Part shown: positions 37,336-64,000 of the stretch, piece by piece
How positions within the stretch are numbered: the first letter of the stretch is position 1
Layout: each line of letters starts with the position of its first letter
Assembly (NCBI GenBank): GCA_015501585.1
Contig: JADNRY010000159.1
Span: 62,001-126,000, forward strand
Reading direction: 5' to 3'
DNA length: 64,000 nt
DNA from: Rhodocollybia butyracea
Taxonomy: Eukaryota; Basidiomycota; Agaricomycetes; Agaricales; Omphalotaceae
Translations under genes and position numbers: made by a program
Notes under the pieces: model-generated
Seen by the model: only the letters and a program-made list of their open reading frames with translations
Database searches by the model: none
Told to the model about the DNA's origin: nothing

Positions 37336-38217
37336 TATTAGGCCTAAAATCGGCCTAAGGCGTGTAACCGTACATTTTGACATTTTGTACACGTTATACA
37401 ATGCAATAAGAGAGTTATATGGAGCCTGAGCATGATAGCTGTTGCCGAAACAAAGAACTTAACAATAATACTCAGCAAGCCGTGAAGGTATGCCTACAAG
37501 CGTAGCCTAGAGCCAAGCTAGCAAGGATACATGGGCTGCCCGGAGATGTAACGCTAGATCGTCAATCTAGTTATACCCAAGGGTGTATACTCTCTAAACT
37601 ACAGGACATCTTGAAGCAGGATAAGTACTAAGTCAATGCATTACTCAAGGGAAGGATTTATGAGGGAAGGCATCCCTCGCACTAAGACCCCCAATGAGCT
37701 ATGTTAAGATGAGGACTTTACAGTCCATAACATTGGACCAGAATAATCCTGAGGAAACTGTAGAGGTCTACTCACAGCACTGGTCGTAACCGTGAAAGCG
37801 GTAGAAACATGCTTAGCGGTCCCACGGAAAGCTATGCACCGGGATAGCCTTGGCAAATCAAAACGTTTGATCTTAGAAATCATACACAGGAGGTCTTATC
37901 CATTAAAGCTGACTATTGGGAATCACTTGTACATACTCAGTGCAGTTGCTCAAGACTATCATAAGTGGTGTTGTTGGAAAGCTAGACAACAGGCCTTCTC
38001 GAGAGAATGTTAATTACACTCAGGATGGACAGAACTATCTGAGAAATAGAATGAAACTCACCCAAGGGAAACCGGGCGGCAAGTGATCATGAAGTGTAAA
38101 GGTACTCCTGACCCCAGAGAATTGTGAAGTAATCGGAGAAACCTTGCTCAGATCAAAACACTTTAAACTATGTTAATCCTCACGAAATTATATTTTACCT
38201 CTGATATATATCCAAGA
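37336..38217 (+). repeat. Dispersed repeat family R1, copy A
   Basis: Starts TATTAGGCCTAAAATCGGCC. It matches, almost base for base, copy C at 63121-64000 and, inverted, copy B at 44268-45705. It is non-coding, with short internal palindromes at its head. Downstream of the shared part lie TATATAGG (about 38248) and a pyrimidine-rich leader, which is LTR-like, but no TG..CA ends were found. The right boundary cannot be fixed because copy C leaves the window. Confidence 0.8.
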
Positions 38218-41456: not shown

Positions 41457-44400
41457 TTCTGTGAGTTTCGTATTACAAACTAGTTACTAACTTTACTTGA
41501 GCCTAGTTGTTTGAGTATATATTTTTTGCCTAGCGGTTTCAACAAACGGAAAGGCTTGCTCTATAATCTCATTAATTTCTCTTATCATTTTTACTGCCGA
41601 GTTACGTACTGTGAAGGTTTGGACGAGACTATTGATCGAGTCATAACATAATAATACGTCTCCACCCGCCCCCATTAAATGTCTACACAAACAACTCGAA
41701 CGCGCACCCAAACTGGGTCTCATCACCATCCTGAAACATTTGTTCAAGGATCTAGTAATCAAACTATTCCAACCGGTTTTAATGCTCCAGGATATACACT
41801 GGGACAAGACAATCCCAACGTTGGAGACATAAGCCAGTGGACACCCACTGAAATATCAGAAGGTGAAGTTGTAGTGATGAGGAGAATTCACATTGGATCA
41901 GATGGATCAGAAGGTTTGGACGAGACTATTGATCGAGTCATAACAGACTGTTGGACCGCAGGCAATGGTCATGAATTTCTTGGTATAATGCTATCCTTCA
42001 TCCATAACGGCAAAGTTTATATAGTTACATTGGATATGCTTGAGTATGTGGGCTTTCACATTGGATTCACATTTACTTACTTTGTGTCAGAATGACTGTG
42101 TCTCATACTGGGCAGAACTTGGCCAACCAAACAATCATATTACTTGAAGAGTTTGAAATAGCTGATCATACGCTTGGACACACAGCTGACAACGCAACCA
42201 ACAATGACTCTAAACTTGATGCCCTTGAACTGTTCCATAAGGCTTACAAGACCTCCATAGCTGGCCACAATACTCAAATTTGATGCTGGGGACATATACT
42301 CAATCTAATATATCACATATGTTTGACATTATTTCATGTTGTAATTACAGTTCTAATCACTCATCAATCAGGCCATATGTTCTCAGTTTGAGCCACAGAA
42401 GAAGGTGAACACTAACGATAATGATGACAATTGGTTGGATGTGCCCTGGATGACTGGGACCCTGGGGATTTTGATGCAGTAGTTGAGGAAGAAGAAGATG
42501 TGAATGCTGTGGAGGAGATCATTGGAAGCCAGAGAGAAGAGCTTGAGATGTTATGGGCGGAGTCTTCTCGCACACTGATGGAGAGCCCATCAACTGATCT
42601 TGAAGAAGCATGCGGTCGTGCTGCTGTCCAAAAGATTCTCTGTATTGGACATTACTGTGCCCGAAAAGGTCCTATGCAGAAAGCGCTTGTGCACTACTGT
42701 ACCTTGTGCCAAATTCCAAGGCGTAAGATGGTTAAATGAATTTGTACATGTTGGAACACCATGTTTGGTGTTATTACTCATGCTCTTGCACTTCAACCTG
42801 CAATCAATTCCTTGTGTTTGTCTGAGGCCTGGCAGGAGAAGCTTAGTAGATTTAATCCTACAGAGGAACAGTGGGGATTGTTGCAGTGTATGGAACCTAT
42901 TTCAAAGTTTGTGGCAGTCTTCTAAGTGAATTCCTTTTTCTAACGCATGTTTTAGATTCTGAATGAAGCCACAAATTGGATATCAACTTCAAAATATCCT
43001 ACACTTCACCAGGTTATCCTTACTATGGACATTTTAAATGATAAGTTGGAGAAAGAATTCAACAACACTGCTTGCTCAGCTGTCATTTGTCGAGCAATCC
43101 AGAGAGGCATCATAGTCCTTGATAAATACTACTCCTTAACTGATGAGTCTATCATGTGGAAGACAGCAATGTGTAAGTTGTACAATCTTCTCCATATGGA
43201 TTTTAATTCATTGATGTTTTAGTGCTTCATCCAAGGTACCGTGAGAAATGGTTTCACAATGCAAAGTGGGAGGGTTCTTGGGTTGATACTGCTGTGAGAG
43301 AAGCACACCGTATCTAGACTCAGGCCTACAAGACTACAATTACTACTCCATTGAATGGTACTGCTCTTCAACGGACCACCAGTGCTTTCTCAGTTCTTGA
43401 TGCACCTTGTATCGAGAGTTCTAGTGATCCCTTCGATGAGTTTATCAAAGGAAAACAGTCAAACAAGGAGCCTGTTGAATACTGGTCTTCCATTTGGCCC
43501 CAGAACTCAAAGACAATCACACCTTGCCAAGCCCTTGCTTGTATGGCTCTTGACTTCTTAGCTGCCCCTGCTGCAAGTACCAATGTTGAACATTTATTTT
43601 TGATGTCAGGTCTTATTGTTAGCAAGAAGCGCCATAATCTTACACCTGATCATATTTGTCAGAGTATGGTTCTTGGTAACTGGCTAATGGTACCTGGACT
43701 TGTACCAGTTAGTGATATTCAGTGTAAACATGATAAAGGTTATGGTAAGCAGAAGCTGGTGCCTAGTGACAATGAATCTTTATGGTCAGATTCGCAGACT
43801 GCCTCCGCTGATGACTCGGATGAATCTGTTGAAATATGCAACAAACCTTCTCTCACTTCCCACTATGATACTGATACTGAGCATGTTTCTGATTAGTCTA
43901 TACCCAATCTATCTATCAGTCTCTTTATTTAGCTTTTGTTTATAATTCATCTTCATATATTCATCTATATTTGAATATATACACATTCTTCATTCTAGAC
44001 ATTTGAATGTCAGGCATTTGCCATTCGTGACATTCAAGTGCCTACTGCCGCAAATGCATTTGTTGATCAGGGGGTCATTTGAGTGCAAATGCATTCGAAT
44101 ATAGCTTGCAATTTAAGTACATATGTTTATGGCTTATTCTGGGCTTGGGAGCCAAGTGCTGATACTCTGGGATCCAGAAACAGTGAAACAAGGAAAGTGT
44201 CTATCTGTACAGGTATGTATTGACAAAGATCTATAAGAGTAGACCCACTAGGCTACACTTTTGATTTCATGAGGATTAACATAGTTTTAGAGTGTTTTGA
44301 TCCAAGTGAGGTTGCTCTGATTACTCCACAATTCTCTGGGGTCAGGAGTACCTCAATGCTTCATGACCACTTGCTGCCCGGTTTCCCTTGGGTGAGTATC

Positions 44401-44763
44401 ATTCTCTTCCTCAGATAGTCTTGTCCATCCTGAGTGTAATTAACATTCTCTCGAGAAGTCCTGGTGTCTAGCATCCTAACAATACCACTTATGATAGTCT
44501 CGAGCAACTGCACTGAGTGCCTACAAGCAATTCCCAATAGTCGGCTTTAATGGACAGGGCTTCCTGTGTATGATTTCTAAGATCAAATATTTTGATTAGC
44601 CAAGGCTATCCCAGCGCATAGCTTTCCTGGAATCACTAAGCATGTTTCCACCGCTTTCACGGATACAGATGGTGCTGCAAGTAGACCTCTATGGTTTTCC
44701 TCAGGATTATTCTGGTCCAATGTTACAGACTGTAAAGTCCTCATCTTAACATAGCTTGTTGGG

Positions 44764-44892
44764 CATCAGCAAAACATGTATGCATGGGAAGCCACTTTCC
44801 GGCACTTTCCAGCACTGTCCAGCACTGGGAGCTGCTGGAATCGGCTGTATGGTGCCCGACAATGGCTCCAGTTCACCCATGTTTTGCTGATG
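44764..44892. mobile_element. Foldback MITE 1, 129 bp (CATCAGCAAAA family)
   Basis: Ends CATCAGCAAAACATG and its inverted copy. It interrupts R1 between GTTGG and GGGTCTT, with GG duplicated. The body contains repeated CACTTTCCAGCACTG-like words. Confidence 0.82.
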
Positions 44893-45177
44893 GGGGTCTT
44901 AGTGCGAGGGATGCCTTCCCTCATAAATCCTTCCCTTGAGTAATGCATTAGCTTAGTACCTATCCCGCTTCAAGATGTCCTGTAGTTTAGAGAGTATACA
45001 CTCTTGGGTATAACTAGATTGACAATCTAGCATTACATCTCTGGGCAGCCCAGGTATCCTCGCTAGCTTGGCTCTAGGCTATGCTTGTGGGCATACCTTC
45101 ATGGCTTGCTGAGTATTATTGTCAAGTTCTTTACCTTGGCAACAGCTATCACACTTGGCCTCTGTATAACTCTCTTA

Positions 45178-45630
45178 GGCCCTGTTCGGGAACCCGATTT
45201 GCAAATGAGTTTCAAAAGGGTCGGGTTGAAAAGTGTCAAAATCTGTCACAGCTAAGATATTTTGATGGCCATCATATTCCCAGGTTGCTTTGGCGCTCAA
45301 GGGCTTCTTTAGCGCCAGTAGACTAGAGACTACATTTCTAAGTGCGTTATCTTACATTTTGAGTGAAAGTTGTACTGATTAGGTGTAGCTAGATATCAGA
45401 ATGTATTTTATAATGTGTGCCTAGCAATAAACCTTCAACAAAGTCATAGGATGCAATATTTTGAACATTATCGGCAAATGCCATAGGAAAATCGTCATGA
45501 GAAAATTTCTGCTTGTTTCAGGCTGTCACCATATGGGTCATCTGGTGTGACAAAATTAAACTAGCCCTGCAACTCATCTCACGCCAAATTAACTTCAACT
45601 CATTTGCAACTTGGGTTCCCGAACAGGGCC
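45178..45630. mobile_element. Harbinger/Tourist-type MITE, 453 bp
   Basis: Perfect inverted ends GGCCCTGTTCGGGAACCC, with further inner matches, and a 3-bp TTA duplication (45175-45177 and 45631-45633). TIR and TSD fit the PIF-Harbinger superfamily. The empty site is visible in R1 copies A and C (CTCTTATTGC when inverted). Non-coding. Confidence 0.92.
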
Positions 45631-45705
45631 TTATTGCATTGTATACCATGTACAAAATGTCAAAATGTACGGTTACATGCCTTAGGCCGATTTTAGGCCT
45701 AATAG

Positions 45706-49322: not shown

Positions 49323-49488
49323 TGTTGGATATTTATCCTGGGCTGCTCAATCGAGGCTGTGGATAAACACATATATACAAATGATGTGTAACTACAACCC
49401 TTGATAACAATCTAATAGTAGTCTTGAACCGCCATCTCAGAGCCATCTCAGAGCCATCTAAGAGTCTAGGAGTCTTTATTAACCAACA
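49323..49488 (+). repeat. 5' LTR of the gag-only element
   Basis: 166 bp, identical to the 3' LTR. It contains TATATAC at about 49372 and a tandem GAGCCATCTCA repeat near its end. Confidence 0.93.
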
Positions 49489-49500
49489 GGTTATGGGCCC
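49489..49500 (+). promoter_or_regulatory. Primer binding site (initiator tRNA-Met, internal)
   Basis: GGTTATGGGCCC immediately follows the LTR and is complementary to the conserved GGGCCCAUAACC anticodon region of initiator tRNA, as in Drosophila copia. Confidence 0.7.
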
Positions 49501-49629
49501 CGTGTCCACACTATACATCTAGGAGTTTTATTCATCATCTAGGAGCTTTACTTTTCACCCAATCACTCAATCTCACTCATTTCATCATCCCATCCCCAAT
49601 CCCTTTTCAACGACTCATATTCATTCACT

Positions 49630-50727
49630 ATGGCCACACTTTCAGCTCTTCTTAATCTTGGAAGGAACATTCCCCTACTTTCCACTACAAATGCTGATGA
49701 CTGGAGCAACTGGAAAGAGGATGTTCTGCAAATGGTGCTTAGTGCAGATGGTCAGAGCGCCAAGATTGCCACAGGGTTGACTTCACGTCCATCAGAGGCT
49801 GCTGATGCCAAGGAATGGGATCGACTCAACTCACAGGCTGCGTCCATCATTAAATCCCTCACTAATCGAGACTGCCGAAACATCTACAAGGATAAGACAA
49901 ATGCTTCCGAAATCTGGAGTGCACTTGTCTCCTATTTTGAAAAATCATCATTTTCCTCACGTTCAGCTACACGTGCTGCCTATCACCGCATTACGCATGA
50001 TCCGCTTAAACCAACCAAAGTCTATCTTGATGCTTTGGATGATATGCGTGCTCGTCTTCAGGCACTACTCCCTTCTGGTGAAACAATCTCTGATAGTTAT
50101 CACAAGGATATCATGCTCCAGAACCTTCATTCATCATTCGAGGCCTGGAAAACATCTCTTCTTGCCCAACCTACTGGCGAGCCCAATCTTAAAACCTGCC
50201 GCACTGTTCTTGAGAGTGCTATGGTTTCATTTGACCCTGAGAAGAGAGCCGATGAAATTTTAGATGGGATTAATAACCCGTCTGAACCATCCTCCCGTGT
50301 AGAGGCTGCTCATGCTTATGCTACAGCTTTCCGAAAGGGAAGTAAAGGAGGAAGTCGGAATGGATCTGGTACTAGGGAAAGTTTTAGTGGTAGAGGGGGA
50401 GGAAGAGGGGGAGCTTCCAATGGAAGCGGCCATGAAGATGGACAAGGATTTATAGACAGTCGCGGAAATCGCTGGTGCGATATGTCTATGGATGGCTGTC
50501 ACCGTTGTGGAGGTATGTCGCACAAGGCTTCTAACTGTGTCAAGGACATGCCAGAGGAAGTCAAGCACTGGTGTCTTAACCGCACATATGACACTGCGCA
50601 CATCACTCACAATCCTCCCAATAACATCTCTTCACATTTCATTGCTCCTATTGATACTTATGGTTTTTCTGCTCATCCTACTTGTCCACCCTTTGAAGAG
50701 GAGGAGTATATTGATTTTCATGCTTGA
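49630..50727 (+). CDS. Gag protein of the copia-like element
   Basis: 365 codons, ATG at 49630, no intron. Residues about 20-220 resemble the copia-type gag (UBN2-like) fold: WSNWKEDVLQMVLSADG, SLTNRDCRNIYKDKTNASEI, LVSYFEKSSFSSRSATRA and LDDMRARLQALLPSGE. A Gly/Ser/Arg-rich linker (about 235-270) is followed by a CCHC zinc knuckle CHRCGGMSHKASNC, which would bind the element's RNA. The frame is fully open and the stop lies 49 bp before the 3' LTR, so it encodes gag alone rather than a truncated polyprotein. Confidence 0.9.
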   Translation: MATLSALLNLGRNIPLLSTTNADDWSNWKEDVLQMVLSADGQSAKIATGLTSRPSEAADAKEWDRLNSQAASIIKSLTNRDCRNIYKDKTNASEIWSALVSYFEKSSFSSRSATRAAYHRITHDPLKPTKVYLDALDDMRARLQALLPSGETISDSYHKDIMLQNLHSSFEAWKTSLLAQPTGEPNLKTCRTVLESAMVSFDPEKRADEILDGINNPSEPSSRVEAAHAYATAFRKGSKGGSRNGSGTRESFSGRGGGRGGASNGSGHEDGQGFIDSRGNRWCDMSMDGCHRCGGMSHKASNCVKDMPEEVKHWCLNRTYDTAHITHNPPNNISSHFIAPIDTYGFSAHPTCPPFEEEEYIDFHA

Positions 50728-50775
50728 TTATATTTATAGCTTAGGGGGAGCTCTCTTTGTTTCGCAGAGGGGGAG

Positions 50776-50941
50776 TGTTGGATATTTATCCTGGGCTGCT
50801 CAATCGAGGCTGTGGATAAACACATATATACAAATGATGTGTAACTACAACCCTTGATAACAATCTAATAGTAGTCTTGAACCGCCATCTCAGAGCCATC
50901 TCAGAGCCATCTAAGAGTCTAGGAGTCTTTATTAACCAACA
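50776..50941 (+). repeat. 3' LTR of the gag-only element
   Basis: Identical to 49323-49488 and followed by the AGTAA duplication. Confidence 0.93.
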
Positions 50942-50946
50942 AGTAA

Positions 50947-53789
50947 TTCCACCTATCTGACATGATTTGGCTTCTATACGGGCCCTTCTTGGCGAAATCA
51001 AAAAAGTTGGCTTTTAAGGATCTTTTCAGCAATTGGGGTCAGGTGAAGAGGCTGATGCCAGGTGTTATGAATGCTGAGAGGTCCTGCATCAGCATTTCTC
51101 CACGATTGTGATCCGGTATAATTGGCATCAATACATGCCAATCACGCCTCTTTATACAAATTTTGGGAAGTATAATCAGGTATGTATAGACCCCGAGTGC
51201 ATAATAGAAATACCCAATTATACATGATTATAGATGTTTATGCTCTCGATTCTCATCTGATTATACCTTGCTTTATACCCAGTAATACCAGATTATACAA
51301 GATTATACATCCCCATTATACACATTAATACACGGTTATACACCCAGTTTTTAGCTCAGTTGCTCATTACACAGCTGAAAAACTAGCAAAAACATTGTTA
51401 TTACTTCAATATATTACAACTACATATACATAGTACAATATAGGCTAAAAAAATGTTACTACTGTTATGACCACACAAGACAAGCAGCGTCGCGTTGCGC
51501 AGAAAGCAAAACATCACTAGATACCAATCGGCGCATCAGTAAAACGTTATCACAAATGGGAAAAAGACTGACCTTGTAAGCCCCAGAGAATCGTTGCTAT
51601 GTACAAAGACATCAAGTTAGTAAATATCGTCGAACTGATATGAAGTGATAAACCTAAACTCGAAGCCTGGCGAAAATCAAAAAATGGTCTGAGAGCCTGT
51701 GGACATGAAAATGGAGGCGGCCTGCAAAGGAAAGATGCCTGTGCAAGTACTCAACACTCTGTGAATAGTCAGTACATATTCGAGTCTGGCTGGGAATCGA
51801 CTTGCCTAGATTTATGGGAGGAGGTGGGGCTGGCGTCAATGCTTTTCCGAACTTTGAAATGTATAGCTGTATGGTTGGTAGCAGTACAAAACAACGAGGA
51901 CCAGAAAAAACAATAGTAAGTACTAATTGGCTAAAGAAAAAGAGACATGCACCACAATAACACCAAGATCCAAGTCCTAGTGCACCTCTCCGAAAATCAC
52001 TTAAAGAAGGCAAATTCTCGATAGGCAATTAAAAAACGCAGCAGCCCAAGCTGGAGGACTAACTGTAGGCCGCAAGTAGCAACAAGAGCGAGGATAAAAT
52101 TTTAACATCCGAGGAAAAGAAAGATTAGAGATGGTTTGAGTTTTTAAAATTGAAAACGGCGCTGACGTCAAATCATGAAACGATCATGTGGTACTATACA
52201 GCCGTCGGAGTTTCAATGGACTTAGCTGTTCCGCATTGGACTTCAGGCGCTGTCAAGGCCGTTGTCCAACTTCATGTAAAGTTCCGCTATCTTGCTGCTG
52301 GAGCTCTGAATAACTGAGGGATGTCATGACTAAGATACTATGCCTGAGGCTGAGGCACGATACCTGTGTGCTCAGTACAATGTCAGTGTGTACCACCACT
52401 GTCACGGTACTACTACATATAAGTACTACAATTTGACTACAATGTACTAACGTCTCATTGGGTTAACATTATAATTTATTGAGAGTAAGTATAATGAGGC
52501 ATAATCATGCATAATTGGACATAATTGGCGCGTATCATCACTGTATCATCGCGTATAATCATTATACCCTGGGTATAATTCACGAAATCTCAGGGTTGCA
52601 TGATTGAGTATAAATCAGCGTTTTGATTACAATGGATATGCAATTATACCATTTACATTTGTGGAGAATTGTTGATGTGGGCCTTGCATAGGTGACTTTC
52701 TCTCTCTGATTCCGTGTTTAAACTTGTCAGTTTTCTCCAGGTTTACATTTGGTTGTGTTCTTCTATCAGTGGCACTACGCTTATGCTACACTCATGTCTA
52801 ACGGGCCTTTATCTACCTGTTCCGCTAGCTCTCAGAGGATATCACCATAAGCTCTCATCACACAATTTCTTTTCATTTCTGGAAGCCTGCCCATTGAACA
52901 GGCTACACACGACCCCGCTCTGACTCCTTGTATACAATCTTATCTTGCCATTTCCTAAAACACCAGACCTGCCATTTCACCGGCTCCTTTGATATCTTCT
53001 GTCTCAAGTCAAAGTTTAGGGTGTTCTCAATTGCTTTCCTTGTATACTCAATACCATGGTCTCTGGCGGGCATTAATCTCTTATGTGCGCCTTTCATCAG
53101 CGTGCAGACTACCTACTTTTGATAAGTTGGCCTTTCTCTGTCTCAATGGTTTTCTGACTTTCTTTTAGGTCACTTTGACTTCGAAACATGTACATGGTAT
53201 CCATTTTTCAGAGCGCAAGGCGATTGACGAAAGCTTTATTTCAGGATTCTGATGGCCCTCCCGATAGTCGATTGTCAACTCCCACTTTGCGAACCCTTTT
53301 GGAGGATAAAAGCTGGTATCATCTATAGATCAATACCCTCGTTCACAATAACTGTTGACTCGCTGTGAAGATCAAGCTGTTTAATGGTGCAGTACTTCAC
53401 ATTCTCACCTCCAGGTATGAATCACCTTCTCAAGAATAGCATGTCAAAGCTGAACTTTGTAGTTATACCAATATTCTCAAATCTTTTCATTGTTGTTTCT
53501 ACATTGTCCATGTGCATTGCATGGATCCCGGGAACAACACTCCAATTGAGTAAATCTCAATGATATGCTTCCATTACCTGATTACCCAATATTTCCTTCT
53601 CTAAAACCATTTTGTAGGGGTTTCGCGATGTACTAGTCAATCTCGGTAATAGGTGAGCCATTTCTCCCTTTATACATCGTGGGATAACAACTGGGATGAG
53701 AGCGTTTGGCCGGTTGAGGTCTCTGCTTTGCGAGAATAGATAGTAGTACTAGTAGGCCTATGTATAGTATTTGATACATTCAATATAAC
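50947..53789. other. Interior of the CACTA-like element, mostly uncharacterised
   Basis: Two AT-rich zones (51110-51360 and 52480-52660) are full of TATAATC/GATTATA and ATAATTGGCAT words in both orientations. They face each other around inverted GGTATAATTG (51115; complement ending 52650), possibly a further nested element of about 1.5 kb. Minus-strand open pieces (51654-52028; 52903-53097 with KISKEPVKWQVWCFRKWQ) look partly coding but match nothing I know. Confidence 0.4.
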
Positions 53790-54100: not shown

Positions 54101-54277
54101 TATAGTAGTTATGTTTGTTTTAGCCAAAGTAGTCACCTGGTACCACTTCTAAGCAATGTAACTACTACTTACACTGCTTGGATGTTGATGTATTCAAAAG
54201 GGAGTTTTATTGTAAGCAGGGAATGCGTAGGCGAAGATCACTTACATATATTGACTTTTAGGATTTAACACGTTAAA
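54101..54277 (+). repeat. Satellite-like sliver between two elements
   Basis: Ends with GCGTAGGCGAAGATCACTTAC..TATTGACTTTTAGG, a diverged form of the 113-bp satellite unit. It includes the left CGTTAAA duplication (54271-54277) of the next element. Confidence 0.5.
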
Positions 54278-54542
54278 TTAGGCCTGTTACAGTCCCCTCT
54301 ATGAGGTTGACAGCTTAAGCGAGAAACCTCGATAGAGGGGCCTGGAAACCGGCTCCGGACCGTAGCACAGACTTTTAAACAGCTTTGACCGATCCTTAAT
54401 TAGCTTAACCTCGATTTGGGCAAAGCGGATGGGAATTTTTGAATGTATTGAAACCGTTCCGTGAATTCCGTTCAGCGTTATTTTCTTCCGTCTCGCTCAG
54501 CTTGTCCAGCATTTTCGACGTGTCGCGCGCGCAACAACGCGT
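54278..54542 (+). repeat. Left TIR of the DUF6589/RecQ element
   Basis: Inverted copy of 59967-60232. It contains a small internal palindrome (CCCCTCTATGAGG ... CCTCGATAGAGGGG) near the tip and probably the promoter of the plus-strand gene. Confidence 0.93.
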
Positions 54543-54579
54543 CAATAAGAATATAAATCGTTTTTCAACACTACAACCA

Positions 54580-57500
54580 ATGAATTCTCAACCTTTATTC
54601 CAATTTGTCTCGAATACAGCTCCGATTACACCAGATCCCAGCGCATTACAGCGTTCAATCTCACAACCTATGACCTTTGGCACCGGCCCAGCTTTAGTAC
54701 CAAAAACTCGAAGAAGAAAACAGAAATCTGCGGCATTTAAAGTTCCAAATTATCCTATCCGAAACCTTGCCAACCAAAGCCAATCACTTGCCGACTCATT
54801 GTTTCCGCAATCACCTACTTTGACACCGATTATAGGACTAGGACTTGACGAGCCTTTCCTAGAGAACGGAAATGGTTCCCAGTTACCACTAGGCAGCAGT
54901 TTATTTTCCAACCTTGCTCACACCGAATCACTTTCAAATTCCACCAACACTCATTCATTCTCCCAGTTTCCATCCACTCCAGTTACTCCAGCACTCTCAT
55001 CATCATCTTGGTCGGAGCCATCAAGCTCTCCCGAAACTTTTCTGCACACGCCACAGTCTGCATATAGCTCGTATTCACGTCCTCTTGTTAATTTCGGTGA
55101 CTCTCCTCCAATGCCAATCCCACCATCTATATCCCGCTCCACATCAGTGTCAAAGACCCAGCTTGCACTAGATGAGCTACATAAAATAGGACTATCACCG
55201 TTCGAGTTTATTTCCACATTACTTGACCCCATGCACGAGCAATTTTCCCTCAATCGTAATGCATTTTTTCGCCATGACTCAAAGGTTATTCCCCAGCTTC
55301 TGACTCGGATATTCGACCATCCAGTCGGAAACAGCATCTTTATGAACTGGTTACCACTGGAATATGCTTCGTAATCTTTTTTGTTCACGTATTTCTCAGC
55401 AGATGGTGTCTGCAAAGGAGAAGTTCCATATGACTACCAAGGAATTCAATCTAAAATTTCTCCACTCTTTATGATCTGCGCAGAGATGTAGGTGAATTTG
55501 CCAACGAGAACATGGGCGACTGGATGGCTTGTACTGAAAGCGGCTACTGGCTGCTTAGATTTCAGATAAGAAGACAAGCCAAAACAGAGATGGTAACAAA
55601 TTTACGCATCGTTTTCATATTCACTTCCACTCACTAGATATTCAGGGCCGTCTTGTTATGACATGCCAAGCAATGAACATGCTATCCTTGCAGTGTTCGC
55701 AGTTACAGTACCTCCTTGGAATGTTTGCTTGGGTCCACAGGAACTTCAAAGCAGACTATCGAGGTCTTGGACACTGCTGGTCTGTCCGTTTCGTATCCGA
55801 CTATCCTTAAGACAATTGGGACTATGGCTGATGATAGCGTCGCTCTCGCCTCTGAACTCTCGCACAAGCCCCATGTCTTCACCTATGACAATATGGACAT
55901 CTCGTCTTCGGAACACGTTGAACAGACAAAAGATGCTGTTTCAAAGGTTCGATCCGGCTGCTTTTGTTTGGTTTACGGGATGCTATGGTGTGAAGGACCC
56001 GTAAACATATGCTATTAGCACCGATTCTCAAGAATTTACAGAAGGTTGTGCCTCTACGAGTCCGTGATATCCGTGCACAACAAGCTCAATCCCTTGCGTA
56101 TCATCACCAATGCCTCATTAATATCATCCATTTCCCTGGGCCGCAATTTGAAACAGTTCAAGTCTGTTAATTTCCGATCCTGATCTACAGTTACCAACCT
56201 CGTCGTCCACTTCCCTCTGGTTTGAAGACTATCTTTGCGGCACTTCGTGCTACAACTATCGAGGAGAAAACTATCAATGGGAACCTGTTAAATCAAGAAA
56301 AACTTCTACATTGAACAGATGCATCGCGACCCATTCGATCCGAATCTATCGTTATATGGTATTCCTTCTATCAATGATCAGTTAACAAAACTCTCGCATT
56401 CGTAGTTGTCTCATATCGCGGACAGGCGATATTAATGGTTGGGCACGACGTGAGGTATTTACACTTGGTATTGCACCGCTCCATGCTTGTATGAACCTCT
56501 CATGGGATTGCGTGCAAAGCATTACGGATCTGTGAGCACCCCAGGAAGTTTAGCCTGGTTTTTTGCTATCATGGAGAAGAAGCGACTTGCAGGTGAAAAA
56601 ACCAGACTACCATGCACTAACATCTGCACTCCGCCAAATCCTTGATGGGATATTGATTAGTTGTTGGAAAAAAGAATGCGGATATGGCTCCCTGGACGAG
56701 TTCGCAGATGCCCAACCCGGAGCCATGGAGCTGAAGACGATTGCAACAACTATTCTCAATAAATATTGCACCTCCTTCCCCGAAAAAAAGAAAACGAAGA
56801 CTCTATCTATCCTGTTTTCTGCTACAAGGTCAGAAGATTCGGTTCCTGACATTTCTCCTGATGATATCTGCCATCGAAATCTGCGCCTATTGGTGCGAGA
56901 CTTGCTTGTCTTGCTTGAGCTTATGACTGCTGCTCTCATGGCGACTTCGGAGGATCGAGGACTTGCTTCCAGACCTTGCTGCAATGTTCCGTAGCATAGG
57001 CTCGAACAAGTATGCAGTTGAGTGTATTGGGCTAATGTACAATCTTAAATATGTATGGCCATCGGAATACGCGTACGTTCATTTGATATTCAACTTATAG
57101 GGATGCTGATAGCCTTGTACAGGGATATCATGCGTGATAACCATCTTGTCAAGGTCTCTGGATTAGTTGCACATTTCATGGGTATTGATATGAATATTGA
57201 GCATAATATCGGATATGTGAAGGTAAGCTCGCAGTTTCATGCAAGTGGTAAAATCTCATTGAATATAGGACTTGTATGGCGCAAAGGGTATTTACGGCGT
57301 CTGGGATCTCCTTGCAGACGTCTCCGCTGCAATTGTCCCAGCTCAAGACTGCAAGAAGAAAGTTCAGAAAATGATGGATACATCTTATCAGAAGAGAGGC
57401 CACAGTAATGTTGACACCTCGGCTTTGGTATGGGATGTTTCTCGAGCCGTCGATGGAGAGAACCTGTTAGACTATGATATCACTCGGAAGACAGACACCA

Positions 57501-57697
57501 TGCGGAAACATACCTTGGTCCCTGACCTCTGCGCTGACGGATATCAGAAGCTGAAAGCGACTATCGGAAGCTTCAATAAACGGATGAAGGCTCAGTGGGG
57601 AAAGGATCCAGAAACTGAACCAGTTCGTGAGGTGGAGGATGATCCCACACTTCCTCCGATGGAATGGGCAGACCCTAATGAACTAAATACTGACTGA
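54580..57697 (+). pseudogene. DUF6589 protein gene, with several frameshifts
   Basis: The ATG at 54580 gives MNSQPLFQFVSNTAPITPD, a Ser/Pro-rich head, then LDPMHEQFSLNRNAFFRHD and GNSIFMNWLPLEYAS. Typical DUF6589 blocks follow in order: GTSKQTIEVLDTAGLSVSYP, HVFTYDNMDISSSEHVEQTK, YQPRRPLPSGLKTIFAAL, PSINDQLTKTRIRS, GWARREVFTLGIAPLHACMN, EKKRLAGEKPDYHALTSALR, MRDNHLVKVSGLVAHFMGID and MNIEHNIGYVK. The last exon ends MEWADPNELNTD. Frame changes not explained by introns occur near 55371, 55470, 55735 (an extra G after FAW), 55980, 56400 and 56950. The copy is therefore probably inactive, or carries sequence errors. The domain's function is unknown. Confidence 0.75.
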
Positions 57698-57866
57698 GAC
57701 GAATAGACTTGTATTCTTGCGTATGTATGTAGAAATCAAGTCCTACGTTTACGTTTGGTAGTACGAACTTGAACAGGATACAACATATCAAACGCATTAA
57801 TCACTTGAAAAATTCCCGGTGCCCAAAGAACTGCAAAATCACTACCAACTTCTTCGTCTAAAGCTG
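57698..57866. other. Convergent gene ends inside the element
   Basis: Short spacer between the two stop codons. It holds both 3' ends; no other feature is seen. Confidence 0.5.
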
Positions 57867-59961
57867 CTACAAGGTCCATGTGAGAATTAAGGGTAAATCG
57901 GGTGTATCTTGCAACAAGGTAGCAAGTTCGGAGTCTGAGATTATCAGATACTCGGGGACAACACCAGATATTGGGTTGCGTTCATGCTCTACCCTACGCC
58001 AACGTAACAGTCGCGCCCTCAGTGGTTTCCTATGACGCGTTGTACGGACCTTTAATCCTGCTTCAGTATCTTGTTCATCCAGATTAACTACAGGCTCGTC
58101 AAGTGCTTTGCGTTTCGTCAAGTTCGGCTCAGGAGCAGCAACATAGATAGGACCAGGGAGATGGTCTTGAAGTTGAAATTCGTTGTCGGTGTGTGCAGAC
58201 CCATCACAACAAAATGTGAGGTAGTCAAGACCTGTATTATATGTTAGAACTCGTAAGGATAAGGTAAAATTTGACATACGTGAGGGAGAGCAGTTGGCAA
58301 AATAATTAGCTTTGTATTCTCGGATACATGGTGCAAGTATAGCAGCAATTCCTGAGTGCGGAACACGTTCACGTTTGTTTGAGCCAAGCTTGAGTACAGT
58401 GCGAGGACGATCTGGGTCATTGTGAAAAGGAAGGGATTCATCGTTGAACTCTTCAAGTTTAACGTTGAGAACCCAAGGTTCAAATAGCGTAACATGAATA
58501 CCACCGCGTTCATCGCGATCTCCCCGGCCTTTGCGCTGATCGCTCTCGCTTTCATCCACAATACCTACATTCACCGTTATACGTACATCAGGAAAATCCA
58601 CTCCCTAGATAACATTTTAGATTCACACTATTGCATAAATGATACACATACTGTAGATTCAGCGGAGGTAGCACAAAGGATACGACAAGATCCGTCAGGC
58701 CACGTAAACTCATCATGCGCTATCTGCAGGTACTGTGGAGACATTGTACTGTAGTAATGCCGAACAAATCCAGTAGCTCGAAACTGTTCTGGAATATGTT
58801 TATCCAAGTATCTTGAAACACAAAGAGCAAGAGCATTGCTATCAAAGAACAGCAGGACTCGAGGCTGATCTTGAAGCGAGCCGTTTGTAGGAAACGGAGA
58901 GCGAATGAAGCATAGATAGTTTTGCAACACATCAAAATTTCCGACAACACAGTGACGTGCATAGATTATGCTTGGTCGGTTGGTGCATTGTTGTACGAGT
59001 GAGTATTCAGATCCAAGAAAGGACGATTCGAGTGTATGTTTGACATGGTCGGGGCAAGTTGCGGTAAATGCATTCCATATGAGTGTTCTCGGCAAGGTAA
59101 TTTTGAGCTCAGAAAATCGACCCCATGATGGTCTAAAAGCAGATAAACCAAAGCAATCCCTTCCCAAGTAATGCACAAAATGTACTTCATCGATGTTGAT
59201 GTGAAGGAGTCGTCGACGGAATATATGGTCACGGAGGAGGAGAGCTAATCGAGTGAAATGACCTTCCGGTGATTTGAAGAGTTGCTCAGCCGTTACAATG
59301 AGATGCTGAGCGGTCCCGAGTTGTGAGGAATTAATGGCACCATCATGAATGTGTTTCTGTGCTAAAAAGTTAGCGAAGGGTCAGTACTTGATATTGCGGC
59401 TCGTACATACCTTCCAATACTCTTTATTTCGTGGTGTATCCTGATTTACAGCGACTGTATTGATGCCATACTTGTCAAGAAAAGATGTAACCTGTAAATG
59501 TACAACACGTCAGTACCATATCAGAACCTATATCCAGTGTCACACACCTGCATTGCCTGTAGTCTCTTCAGAGGAGATATGGTAATAGATACTCGGGTTG
59601 AGCCAGAGTTCTCAAGCAGCATCAGCAGTGCCATTATGTGCGTCTTCCCAAATCCTGTTCCTGCAATTACCAAGGAATTTCCTGTCTTTGAAGCTAAAGC
59701 TGCTTGCAGCTGCAACTGCTTGGGAATTTCAGCACCACGAGAGGCATAGTACATCAACAAGCATAGTCTCAATGCGAGAGTTTGTTCGGTCGTTGGTTCT
59801 GAGTCGGATGATGAGAGCGAAAGTATAAAGCCAAATGGAATACGGAGTTTGATGTGTTCGTCAAGAGCGTTGTATTTAGAAATTAGGTTGTTATGCGTGT
59901 CTTCTCTAAGTTCATCCAGAAAGAGGCAAAGTGGCAAAGGAAATATGTGATTTTGTGCCAT
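57867..59961 (-). CDS. RecQ-like DEVH-box DNA helicase of the TIR element
   Basis: ATP-driven 3'-5' helicase type; the frame is intact across four short introns. The start is ATG at 59961 (MAQNHIFPLPLCLFLDEL), six bases inside the right TIR. RecQ motif 0 is RGAEIPKQLQLQA (about residues 75-87), Walker A GTGFGKT (101-107), then SITISPLKRLQAMQVTSFLD (motif Ia). Further motifs are LIVTAEQLF, DEVH in LLHINIDEVHFVHYLGRD, TLIWNAFTATCP (motif III), RVLLFFDSNALALCVSRYLD (motif IV), ILCATSAESTGVDFPDVR (motif V) and QRKGRGDRD (motif VI, QRxGRxGRD). The C-terminal part has Cys pairs (CIREYKANYF; FCCDGS) and ends LIISDSELATLLQDTPDLPL. No HRDC domain is visible. It may work with DUF6589 in moving the element; that is inference. 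Confidence 0.88.
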
Positions 59962-59966
59962 ATTCA

Positions 59967-60232
59967 ACGCGTTGTTGCGCGCGGCGACACGTCGAAAATG
60001 CTGGACAAGCTGAGCGAGACGGAAGAAAATAACGCTGAACGGAATTCACGGAACGGTTTCAATACATTCAAAAATTCCCATCCGCTTTGCCCAAATCGAG
60101 GTTAAGCTAATTAAGGATCGGTCAAAGCTGTTTAAAAGTCTGTGCTACGGTCCGGAGCCGGTTTCCAGGCCCCTCTATCGAGGTTTCTCGCTTAAGCCGT
60201 CAACCTCATAGAGGGGACTGTAACAGGCCTAA
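59967..60232 (-). repeat. Right TIR of the DUF6589/RecQ element
   Basis: Differs from the left TIR by one substitution (GACGGC against GACAGC) and one inserted base in the GTCGCGCGCG tract. Confidence 0.93.
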
Positions 60233-60239
60233 CGTTAAA

Positions 60240-61623
60240 TCCGTACCAGCAGAGTATTATATCTGTATAGGCACTTATAAGCTTTAATGCATTACGAGGG
60301 AAGGTTGTTGAAGTGCATAGTACCAGTTATATTGAATTGAGGACTTTTAATATATTAACTTGCCCGCTGAATATTACACTACTGGGAAGTTTTTGATGCA
60401 TTAAGAGGGAGGGTGTAGTAAGCATATACAGTACTACTGATATTGACTTTGAGGGTTTTAAATGCATTAGGAGAGAAGCTGTAGGCGCTTACAGGCTCAT
60501 GTTTCATATTTACATCAGGAAAAGCCGTTTTTGCCTAGGTGACCCAGAGTGGCCTAAAGCAAACTAGGTGACCTATGAATGCTATGGCATCCTAGGAATT
60601 TGGGCTCGTCCCTTGCCAGTCAAGGCTCTTGAGGATTCCCTAGGGTATCCTAGGCAAACCCAGGGCAAGCCTAGGTTTGCCCAGGTTTGCCCAGGTGTTC
60701 CCCAGGTGTTCCCCAGGAGCACCTGGGCAAACCTGGGCAAACCTAGGCTTGCCTAGGGAATCCTCAAGAGCCTTGACTGGCAAGGGACGAGCCCAAATTC
60801 CTAGGATGCCATAGCATTCATAGGTCACCTAGTTTGCTTTAGGCCACTCTGGGGTCACCTAGGCAAAAATGGCTTTTCCTGATGTATTAACTTTTAATGC
60901 ATTAGCTAGGTACCATAGCTGACCATTACATTGGTGTAGGCTCTTGAAAGTTTTAATGCATTGGGAGGGGGGCTGTAGGCGCTTACACTACTACTTTTAT
61001 TAGATTTGGGGACTTTTAATGCATTAAGTATCTACCAGGCGGCTATTACACTACTTAGAAGTCTTAATGCATTAAGAGGGATGGTTTAGGCGCTTACAGT
61101 ACTGCTGATATTGGATTTGAGGAGTTTAAATGCATTAAGTATGTACCAGCTGGCTATTACACTACTGAGCAGTTTTAATGCATTAAGAGGGAGGGTGTAG
61201 GCGCATACAGGCCAGTCCTATTGGATTTGAGGACTTTTGATGCATTAGGGATGTACCATAGCTGACCATTACATTGGTGTAGGCTCTTGAAAGTTTTAAT
61301 GCATTGGGAGGGAGGCTGTTGGCGCTTATAGTACTACTTTTATTAGATTTGGGGACTTTTAATGCATTAAGTATCTACCAGGCGGCTATTACACTACCGA
61401 GAAGTCTTAATGCATTAAGAGGGATGGTTTAGGTGCTTACAGTACCGCTGATATTGGATTTGAGGACTTTTAATGCATTAAGTATGTACCAACTGGCTAT
61501 TACACTACTGAGAAGTCTTAATGCATTAAGAGGGAGGGTGTAGGCGTATACAGTATACTGATATTGACTTTGAGGGTTTTTAATGCATTAGGAGGGAAGC
61601 TGTAGGCGCTTACAGGCTCACGA
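60240..61623 (+). repeat. Tandem satellite, unit about 113 bp
   Basis: Repeats the words TTTTAATGCATTAAG, GAGGGAGGGTGTAGGCGC, TTACAGTACTGCTGATATTG and ATGTACCAGCTGGCTATTAC. The TACCAG/TACCAT anchor recurs near 61029, 61143, 61253, 61370 and 61485, spacing about 110-117. It is interrupted by foldback MITE 4. Related slivers lie at 48040-48143 and 54175-54277. Confidence 0.85.
60513..60884. mobile_element. Foldback MITE 4, 372 bp (CATCAGGAAAA family)
   Basis: Almost the whole element is one inverted repeat, with arms beyond 130 bp starting CATCAGGAAAAGCC. TA flanks both sides (60511-60512, 60885-60886). The centre is made of CCTAGG, TTTGCCCAGG and TGTTCCCCAGG words. As a result the same peptide frame MTYECYGILGIWARPLPVKA can be read on both strands (60568 plus, 60828 minus); this is a symmetry artefact, not a gene. 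Confidence 0.9.
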
Positions 61624-63120: not shown

Positions 63121-64000
63121 TATTAGGCCTAAAATCGGCCTAAGGCATGTAACCGTACATTTTGACACTTTGTACGTGTTATACAATGCAATAAGAGAGT
63201 TATACGGAGCCCGAGCGTGATAGCTGTTGCCGAGGCAAAGAACTTAACAATAATACTCAGCGAGCCGTGAAGGTACGCCCACAAGCGTAGCCTAGAGCCA
63301 AGCTAGCGAGGATACCTGGGCTGCCCGGAGATGTAACGCTAGATCGTCAATCTAGTTATACCCAAAGAGTGTAGACTCTCTAAACTACAGGACATCTCGA
63401 AGCGGGATAAGTACTAAGCCAACGCGTTACTCGAGGGAAGGAATTATGAGGGAAGGCATCCCTCGCACTAAGACCCCCAACGAGCTATGTTAAGATGTGG
63501 ACTTTACAGTCTGTAACAATGGACCAGAACAATCCCGAGGAAACCGTAGAGGTCTATTCGCGGCACCGGTCGTAACCGTGACGACGGTAGAAACATACTT
63601 AGCGGTCCTACGGAAAGCTACGCGCCGGGATAGCCTTGGCAAATAAAACATTTGATCTTAGAAATCATACACGGAGGTCTTATCCGTTAAAGCCGACTAT
63701 CGGGAATCACTTGTACATACTCAGCGCAGTTGCTCGAGATTATCATAAGTGGTGTCGTTGGAAAGCTAGATAACAGGCCTTCTCGAGAGAATGTTAATCA
63801 CACTCAGGATGGACAGAACTATCCGAGGAATAGAATGAAACTCACCCAAGGGAAACCGGGCGGCGAGTGATCATGAAGCGCAAAGGTACTCCTGACCCCG
63901 GAGAATTGTGGAGTAATCGGAGAAACCTCGCTCGGATCAAAACACTCTAAAACTATGTTAATCCTCACGAAATCATATTTTACCTCTGATATATACCCAA
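63121..64000 (+). repeat. Dispersed repeat family R1, copy C (runs off the window)
   Basis: Same head and order as copy A (37336-38217), with more CG dinucleotides, so probably the youngest of the three. It inserted into the gag-like gene. The far end and target duplication are outside the window. Confidence 0.88.

Follow-up and report, generated by a model that had tools for sequence, protein, structure and literature searches.

A two-gene DNA transposon of probable AcademH type pairs DUF6589 with a RecQ-like helicase in Rhodocollybia butyracea

AcademH is reportedly one of the lineages within Academ, a superfamily of DNA transposons, and the name AcademH is said to go back to Kojima in 2020. 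The element described here lies in a 64,000-nt stretch of Rhodocollybia butyracea DNA (hereafter the window, contig C449 in our naming) from a 95.6-Mb assembly, and we regard it with considerable confidence as a two-gene DDE DNA transposon of AcademH type with DUF6589 as its transposase. 'RecQ Helicase in Academ' is listed in a survey that credits Kapitonov and co-workers (PMC3627910), and Academ is counted elsewhere among the DDD/E superfamilies, where KolobokH, with RecQ, is reported only from fungi (PMC9587614). Target-site duplications of 9 or 10 bp in AcademH and of 3 or 4 bp in AcademX have been tied to the presence of a helicase versus a nuclease (PMC10045372), and AcademH has been recorded in Basidiomycota, Ascomycota and Mucoromycota (PMC10799480). 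Two other papers yielded little beyond a citation of AcademH (PMC12210899, PMC9970103), and a third only such a citation and a word on KDZ/Plavaka (PMC8290104).

Element boundaries and mobility

The element occupies positions 54279-60231 of the window (5,953 bp), with ends TAGGCCTG...CAGGCCTA. Repeat detection, copies and end alignment place the left terminal inverted repeat (TIR), which starts TAGGCCTG, at 54279-54542 on the plus strand and the right, which terminates in CAGGCCTA, at 59967-60231 on the minus strand. The TIRs, 265 bp per end, are identical at 263 of 264 aligned positions with two gap columns; the repeat tool gave 249-bp arms at 100%, a rounded figure, with one base differing between the ends there. 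An earlier note on this DNA had put the inverted ends at about 99% identity over 265 bp, which stands, except that the base outside TAGGCC varies among copies and its outermost T is thus target rather than element.

The same note had read a perfect 7-bp duplication, CGTTAAA. Comparison of copies led us to reject this in favour of 9 bp: ACGTTAAAT occurs at 54270-54278 on the left and at 60232-60240 on the right, the repeat being perfect at exactly 9 bp. Counting the outer base, a perfect 9-bp repeat flanks 13 of 16 TIR pairs, with one mismatch at C639, two at C499 and three at C672. By their flanks, C1225 and the window have an insertion site in common, and C3 and C760 share one site in inverse orientation, so the sample represents 14 distinct sites, with perfect 9-bp repeats at 11. 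Outside it stand the C702 TIR match, in which the alignment stops short of the right terminus, the C525 and C687 copies, each with a single end seen, and the C813, C568 and C972 matches.

Three of five constructed joined flanks (C781, C390 and C428) were searched for as empty sites. The site predicted for the C781 copy is present in the assembly, its joined flanks matching C430:82156-82555 at 400 of 400 positions; this empty counterpart, of the kind the earlier note had recommended seeking, is most likely the other haplotype. The C390 copy lies inside a member of a repeated gene, a relative of which (C434:76389-76649) spans the junction without a break, 261 bp matching at 95%. For C428, the joined flanks found no empty site in the assembly. 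With 9-bp duplications at many independent sites and an empty site, the proposal of a mobile element is borne out: the transposon is real, and movement of its family is recent enough that an empty site survives. At some loci the assembly seems to contain two haplotypes: the insertion with identical flanks occurs on both C449 and C1225, 99.4% alike over 9.4 kb.

The gene interrupted on C390 (locus L040, C390:53500-60500), which by eye we take to resemble a sedolisin-type peptidase gene, contains a copy lacking the transposase core; related loci on C434 and C655 are without the insertion.

The gene content of 19 copies was assessed by translated comparison at E ≤ 1e-4. The copies in the window, on C1225 and on C433 yielded all 984 transposase residues; C702, C1172 and C525 yielded 769 to 933 of them. 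C390, C268, C939, C499 and C781 retain no more than the initial part of the transposase, and C687, of which a single end was seen, just the last part. At this threshold C428 and C672 gave no transposase match, and the 0.8-kb copies C760, C639, C541, C3 and C486 matched neither gene. Copies without the catalytic core have thus moved in trans; the clearest case is C781, a short copy with an empty site.

The DUF6589 protein and its helicase partner

Two convergent genes lie tail to tail within the element, as first reported, with DUF6589 on the plus strand and a RecQ-like helicase on the minus strand. In splice models made here on the C1225 copy, the former (54580-57697, +) encodes 984 residues in four exons and the latter (57736-59961, −) 672 residues in five. 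Both start codons fall within about 40 bp of a TIR's inner edge, from which we infer that each TIR may supply a promoter. Both genes are open in the C1225 copy of this insertion. In the window copy the transposase frame is broken and the last helicase exon is frame-shifted, with 20 small indels relative to C1225 in 55361-57099 and four in the remaining element. We set this decay aside as evidence against function, since the C1225 frames are open and the indels cluster in 1.7 kb; poor assembly at 55361-57099 seems more likely than decay.

The first gene model matches DUF6589 in Pfam at 262 bits and no other family at E ≤ 1, and no other transposase domain was found by Pfam in either gene model. 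The predicted DUF6589 structure contains an RNase-H-like domain into which an all-helical segment is inserted, an arrangement known from hAT, P, Transib and RAG1. The computed fold together with conservation yields a candidate catalytic triad of D417, D578 and E835 (C1225 numbering). Foldseek returned no significant match in the PDB for either DUF6589 model (P element, E 0.2; RAG1, E 2.0) and none among viral models at E ≤ 0.001. The structural comparison suggested in the earlier note thus gave an RNase-H-like fold by prediction, though Foldseek alone was not significant. On the strength of this fold and the candidate triad, DUF6589 is very probably the recombinase of the element, of DDE/RNase-H type, as that note had supposed. 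In the helicase model, Helicase_C and DEAD are the Pfam families above the cut-off, with nothing further, and the solved structures related to it are RecQ1, BLM and entries annotated as 'ATP-dependent DNA helicase'. Pfam detected no HUH/Rep, Pif1 or tyrosine recombinase family in the two gene models.

The pairing recurs across the genome. DUF6589 gave 68 matches, grouped into 41 clusters, and a helicase lies within 5 kb in 19 of these, against about 0.8 expected at random if 150 helicase loci are presumed; in the other 22 none was found within that distance. The earlier note had allowed that the two genes might prove unlinked elsewhere, which is not what this genome shows. The convergent arrangement that it also anticipated holds at 13 of the 19 linked clusters and fails at the rest, five being divergent and one tandem.

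A second family, with divergent genes and a length of about 7 kb, is represented by C656, C720, C401 and C1310 and has ends TAGGCTCG and TAGACTCG. At C720, C401 and C1310, three of the four sites, there is a perfect 9-bp duplication, and C656 is without one; a copy on C875 occupies the same site as C656. Short relatives of this family have a perfect 9-bp duplication in four of six cases, and the target 9-mers of two, C1277 and C519, are reverse complements, so these may be one site. A third type of DUF6589 element, on C683 (locus L069, 1817-6068, about 4.25 kb), has ends TAGGTTCGG; it showed no helicase in its minus-strand frames by Pfam and no 9-bp duplication, and may carry a different partner gene. 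Terminus types among DUF6589 elements are TAGGCC.., TAGRCTCG.. and TAGGTTCG...

Beyond this genome, protein searches that each scored only the best 8,000 or so candidates found at least 48 and at least 467 relatives, the latter at E ≤ 0.001 among 7,998 candidates, and all 120 listed rows of the larger search are labelled DUF6589. The named relatives among the matches listed belong, judging by their genera, to mushroom-forming fungi. An alignment search for distant relatives, for instance in animals, returned only the query's first sequence and one further fungal protein, and none of 22 pattern matches in viral contigs was confirmed. In the literature searched, with Repbase and subscription journals outside its range, no paper named DUF6589, and the one paper mentioning 'PF20231' was an unrelated one on optics, so identifying DUF6589 as a transposase may be new to print. 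A Pfam family of at least 467 members, so far of unknown function, would thereby acquire a role as DDE transposase, and annotators could cease counting DUF6589 genes as host genes. With open copies of both genes, an empty site and derivatives that are non-autonomous, this is a tractable system for the role of RecQ in a cut-and-paste transposon.

Near-terminal palindromes and neighbouring repeats

Interrupted palindromes begin 12-16 nt inside each terminus. The left one (54290-54344, +) comprises 18 pairs with one bulge and one mismatch, and its longest perfect arm, 9 bp, was equalled in 1 of 300 shuffles; the right one (60166-60220, −) is drawn from alignment and pair counts. Eight ends from three families were tested for arms, four of them from the window family. 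Six have perfect arms of 9 to 15 bp lying 12-16 nt from the terminus, each equalled in at most 1 of 300 shuffles, and the B_R and C683_R ends have 7-bp arms, equalled in 9 and 12 of 300.

Over 21 distinct ends of the window family, pairing holds in 96% of cells; sliding one arm by 1-3 bases lowers this to 36-57%, a comparison that favours the structure because it was drawn from the same sequences. Two pairs change on both sides, one from C-G to T-A and the other from T-A to A-T and G-C. This count of 2 in 18 pairs was equalled in 404 of 500 shuffles, and the further pair types do not rise above the level of shuffled alignments (439 of 500), though the covariation score, which reflects few events, and the number of cells with changes on both sides are higher than in any of the 500. 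Single-strand folding of the outer 75 nt gave z of -2.5 to -6.0 in seven of eight window-type ends and -2.0 twice for the C683 ends. It was not far below shuffles for C939 (z -0.9) or for the second family (-0.6 and -1.2, with B_R cut one base short). The palindrome may serve to bind a protein or may fold into a hairpin.

In the mechanism we propose, the DUF6589 transposase would recognise the TIR ends, with their TAGG start and near-terminal palindrome, cleave where element meets flank, and link the ends to target strands with a 9-bp stagger, which would produce the 9-bp duplications. The RecQ-like helicase would be an accessory protein, probably unwinding or remodelling DNA at the palindromic ends, the target or a repair intermediate.

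Several other repeats lie nearby in the window. At 49323-50947 there is a Copia-type element with gag only. Its 172-bp terminal repeats are 99% alike and enclose a 394-aa frame with a Retrotran_gag_2 match, AGTAA stands on both flanks, and the whole looks like a TR-GAG element. Just outside the transposon, 60543-60853 forms a 122-bp inverted repeat with a 67-bp loop, 94% complementary and rich in CCTAGG/GCCCAGG, and 60890-61532 holds a 300-bp direct duplication (94%) at 343-bp spacing, surrounded by an 8-copy family of a 65-nt unit. An interspersed repeat is present in three copies, at 37336-38167, 44262-45704 (inverted) and 63121-63975, with pieces 87-96% alike.

Classification and comparison with known systems

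The earlier note saw here a candidate undescribed transposon class, holding that RecQ-type helicases are not components of standard cut-and-paste transposons. Both statements give way to published accounts, since RecQ is reported in Academ (PMC3627910) and in fungal KolobokH (PMC9587614), and a duplication read as 9 bp fits the 9 or 10 bp of AcademH (PMC10045372). The element is likely a new family of AcademH type. What is added is the probable role of DUF6589, a divergent second family with 9-bp duplications, and the palindromes 12-16 nt inside the termini.

We think it rather unlikely, though worth weighing, that DUF6589 elements instead make up a DDE superfamily of their own, outside Academ, with RecQ gained independently, as in KolobokH. 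RecQ is indeed reported in at least two superfamilies (PMC9587614, PMC3627910), the link to Academ is drawn here from published descriptions, and the position of the helicase varies (13 convergent, 5 divergent, 1 tandem), with none found at 22 of 41 clusters. Against this separation, the combination of RecQ, a 9-bp duplication and a fungal host consists of published Academ/AcademH traits (PMC3627910, PMC10045372, PMC10799480). It is somewhat less probable again that a distinct superfamily couples a RAG/hAT/P-like transposase to RecQ, with the helicase acting on the near-terminal palindromes, which compensatory changes would maintain and which could extrude as hairpins. Were this true, transposition would need helicase-driven unwinding of structured ends, and we know of no such step in cut-and-paste transposons.

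There is very little to recommend the reading of DUF6589 as a passenger, with an unlinked enzyme moving the TIRs. Short copies without the DUF6589 core do move (C781), so the enzyme acts in trans; yet two families whose TIR sequences differ both carry DUF6589, the fold and triad predicted for it are of DDE-transposase type, and the two gene models contain no other transposase domain. Nor is a KolobokH element at all probable: Kolobok duplications are TTAA, whereas those here are 9 bp and varied in sequence, and the transposase matches only DUF6589 in Pfam at E ≤ 1. KolobokH shares with the element a fungal host and a RecQ helicase, but its RecQ is described as downstream of the transposase domain (PMC9587614), and ours is on the opposite strand. 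Tyrosine-recombinase elements (Crypton, Starship) were rejected, as no such Pfam family occurs in the two gene models. Mutator-like elements have long TIRs and 9-bp duplications; they were rejected for want of a MULE transposase domain, DUF6589 being the only Pfam match at E ≤ 1. A Helitron-like or rolling-circle element with accidental TIRs, or a set of host genes that an inverted duplication encloses by chance, is scarcely credible: a helicase is carried, and the earlier note raised the comparison, but Helitrons combine HUH/Rep with a Pif1-type helicase and lack TIRs and duplications, whereas this element has a RecQ-like helicase, no HUH/Rep or Pif1 match in its gene models (Pfam), TIRs, 9-bp duplications at many independent sites and an empty site.

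Pfam includes KDZ and Plavaka families, and the element differs from both in that DUF6589 is the only Pfam match of its transposase at E ≤ 1. Like it, KDZ and Plavaka are fungal DNA transposons with accessory enzymes; duplications are 2 or 3 bp in Plavaka, 8 bp in Zisupton, and usually 8 bp in hAT, with variants of 5, 6 and 7 (PMC12730594). hAT (Hermes) and the P element show 5-8% sequence identity to DUF6589 in the structure-search rows. The element is unlike both in its 9-bp duplications, the sole Pfam match of its transposase, to DUF6589, at E ≤ 1 and its helicase partner, and the first two led us to reject hAT membership. The CPA element of Tolypocladium inflatum (Kempken 2008) is also named among the closest known systems. 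AcademH, like the element here, is a DNA transposon with a helicase (RecQ in Academ, PMC3627910); its 9 or 10 bp duplications (PMC10045372) match the 9 bp observed, and it is known in Basidiomycota (PMC10799480), to which the host belongs. The DDD/E transposase expected of AcademH has its counterpart in the predicted fold and conserved candidate triad only, and across the features tested, namely the helicase, the duplication and the predicted DDE fold, AcademH and the element do not differ.

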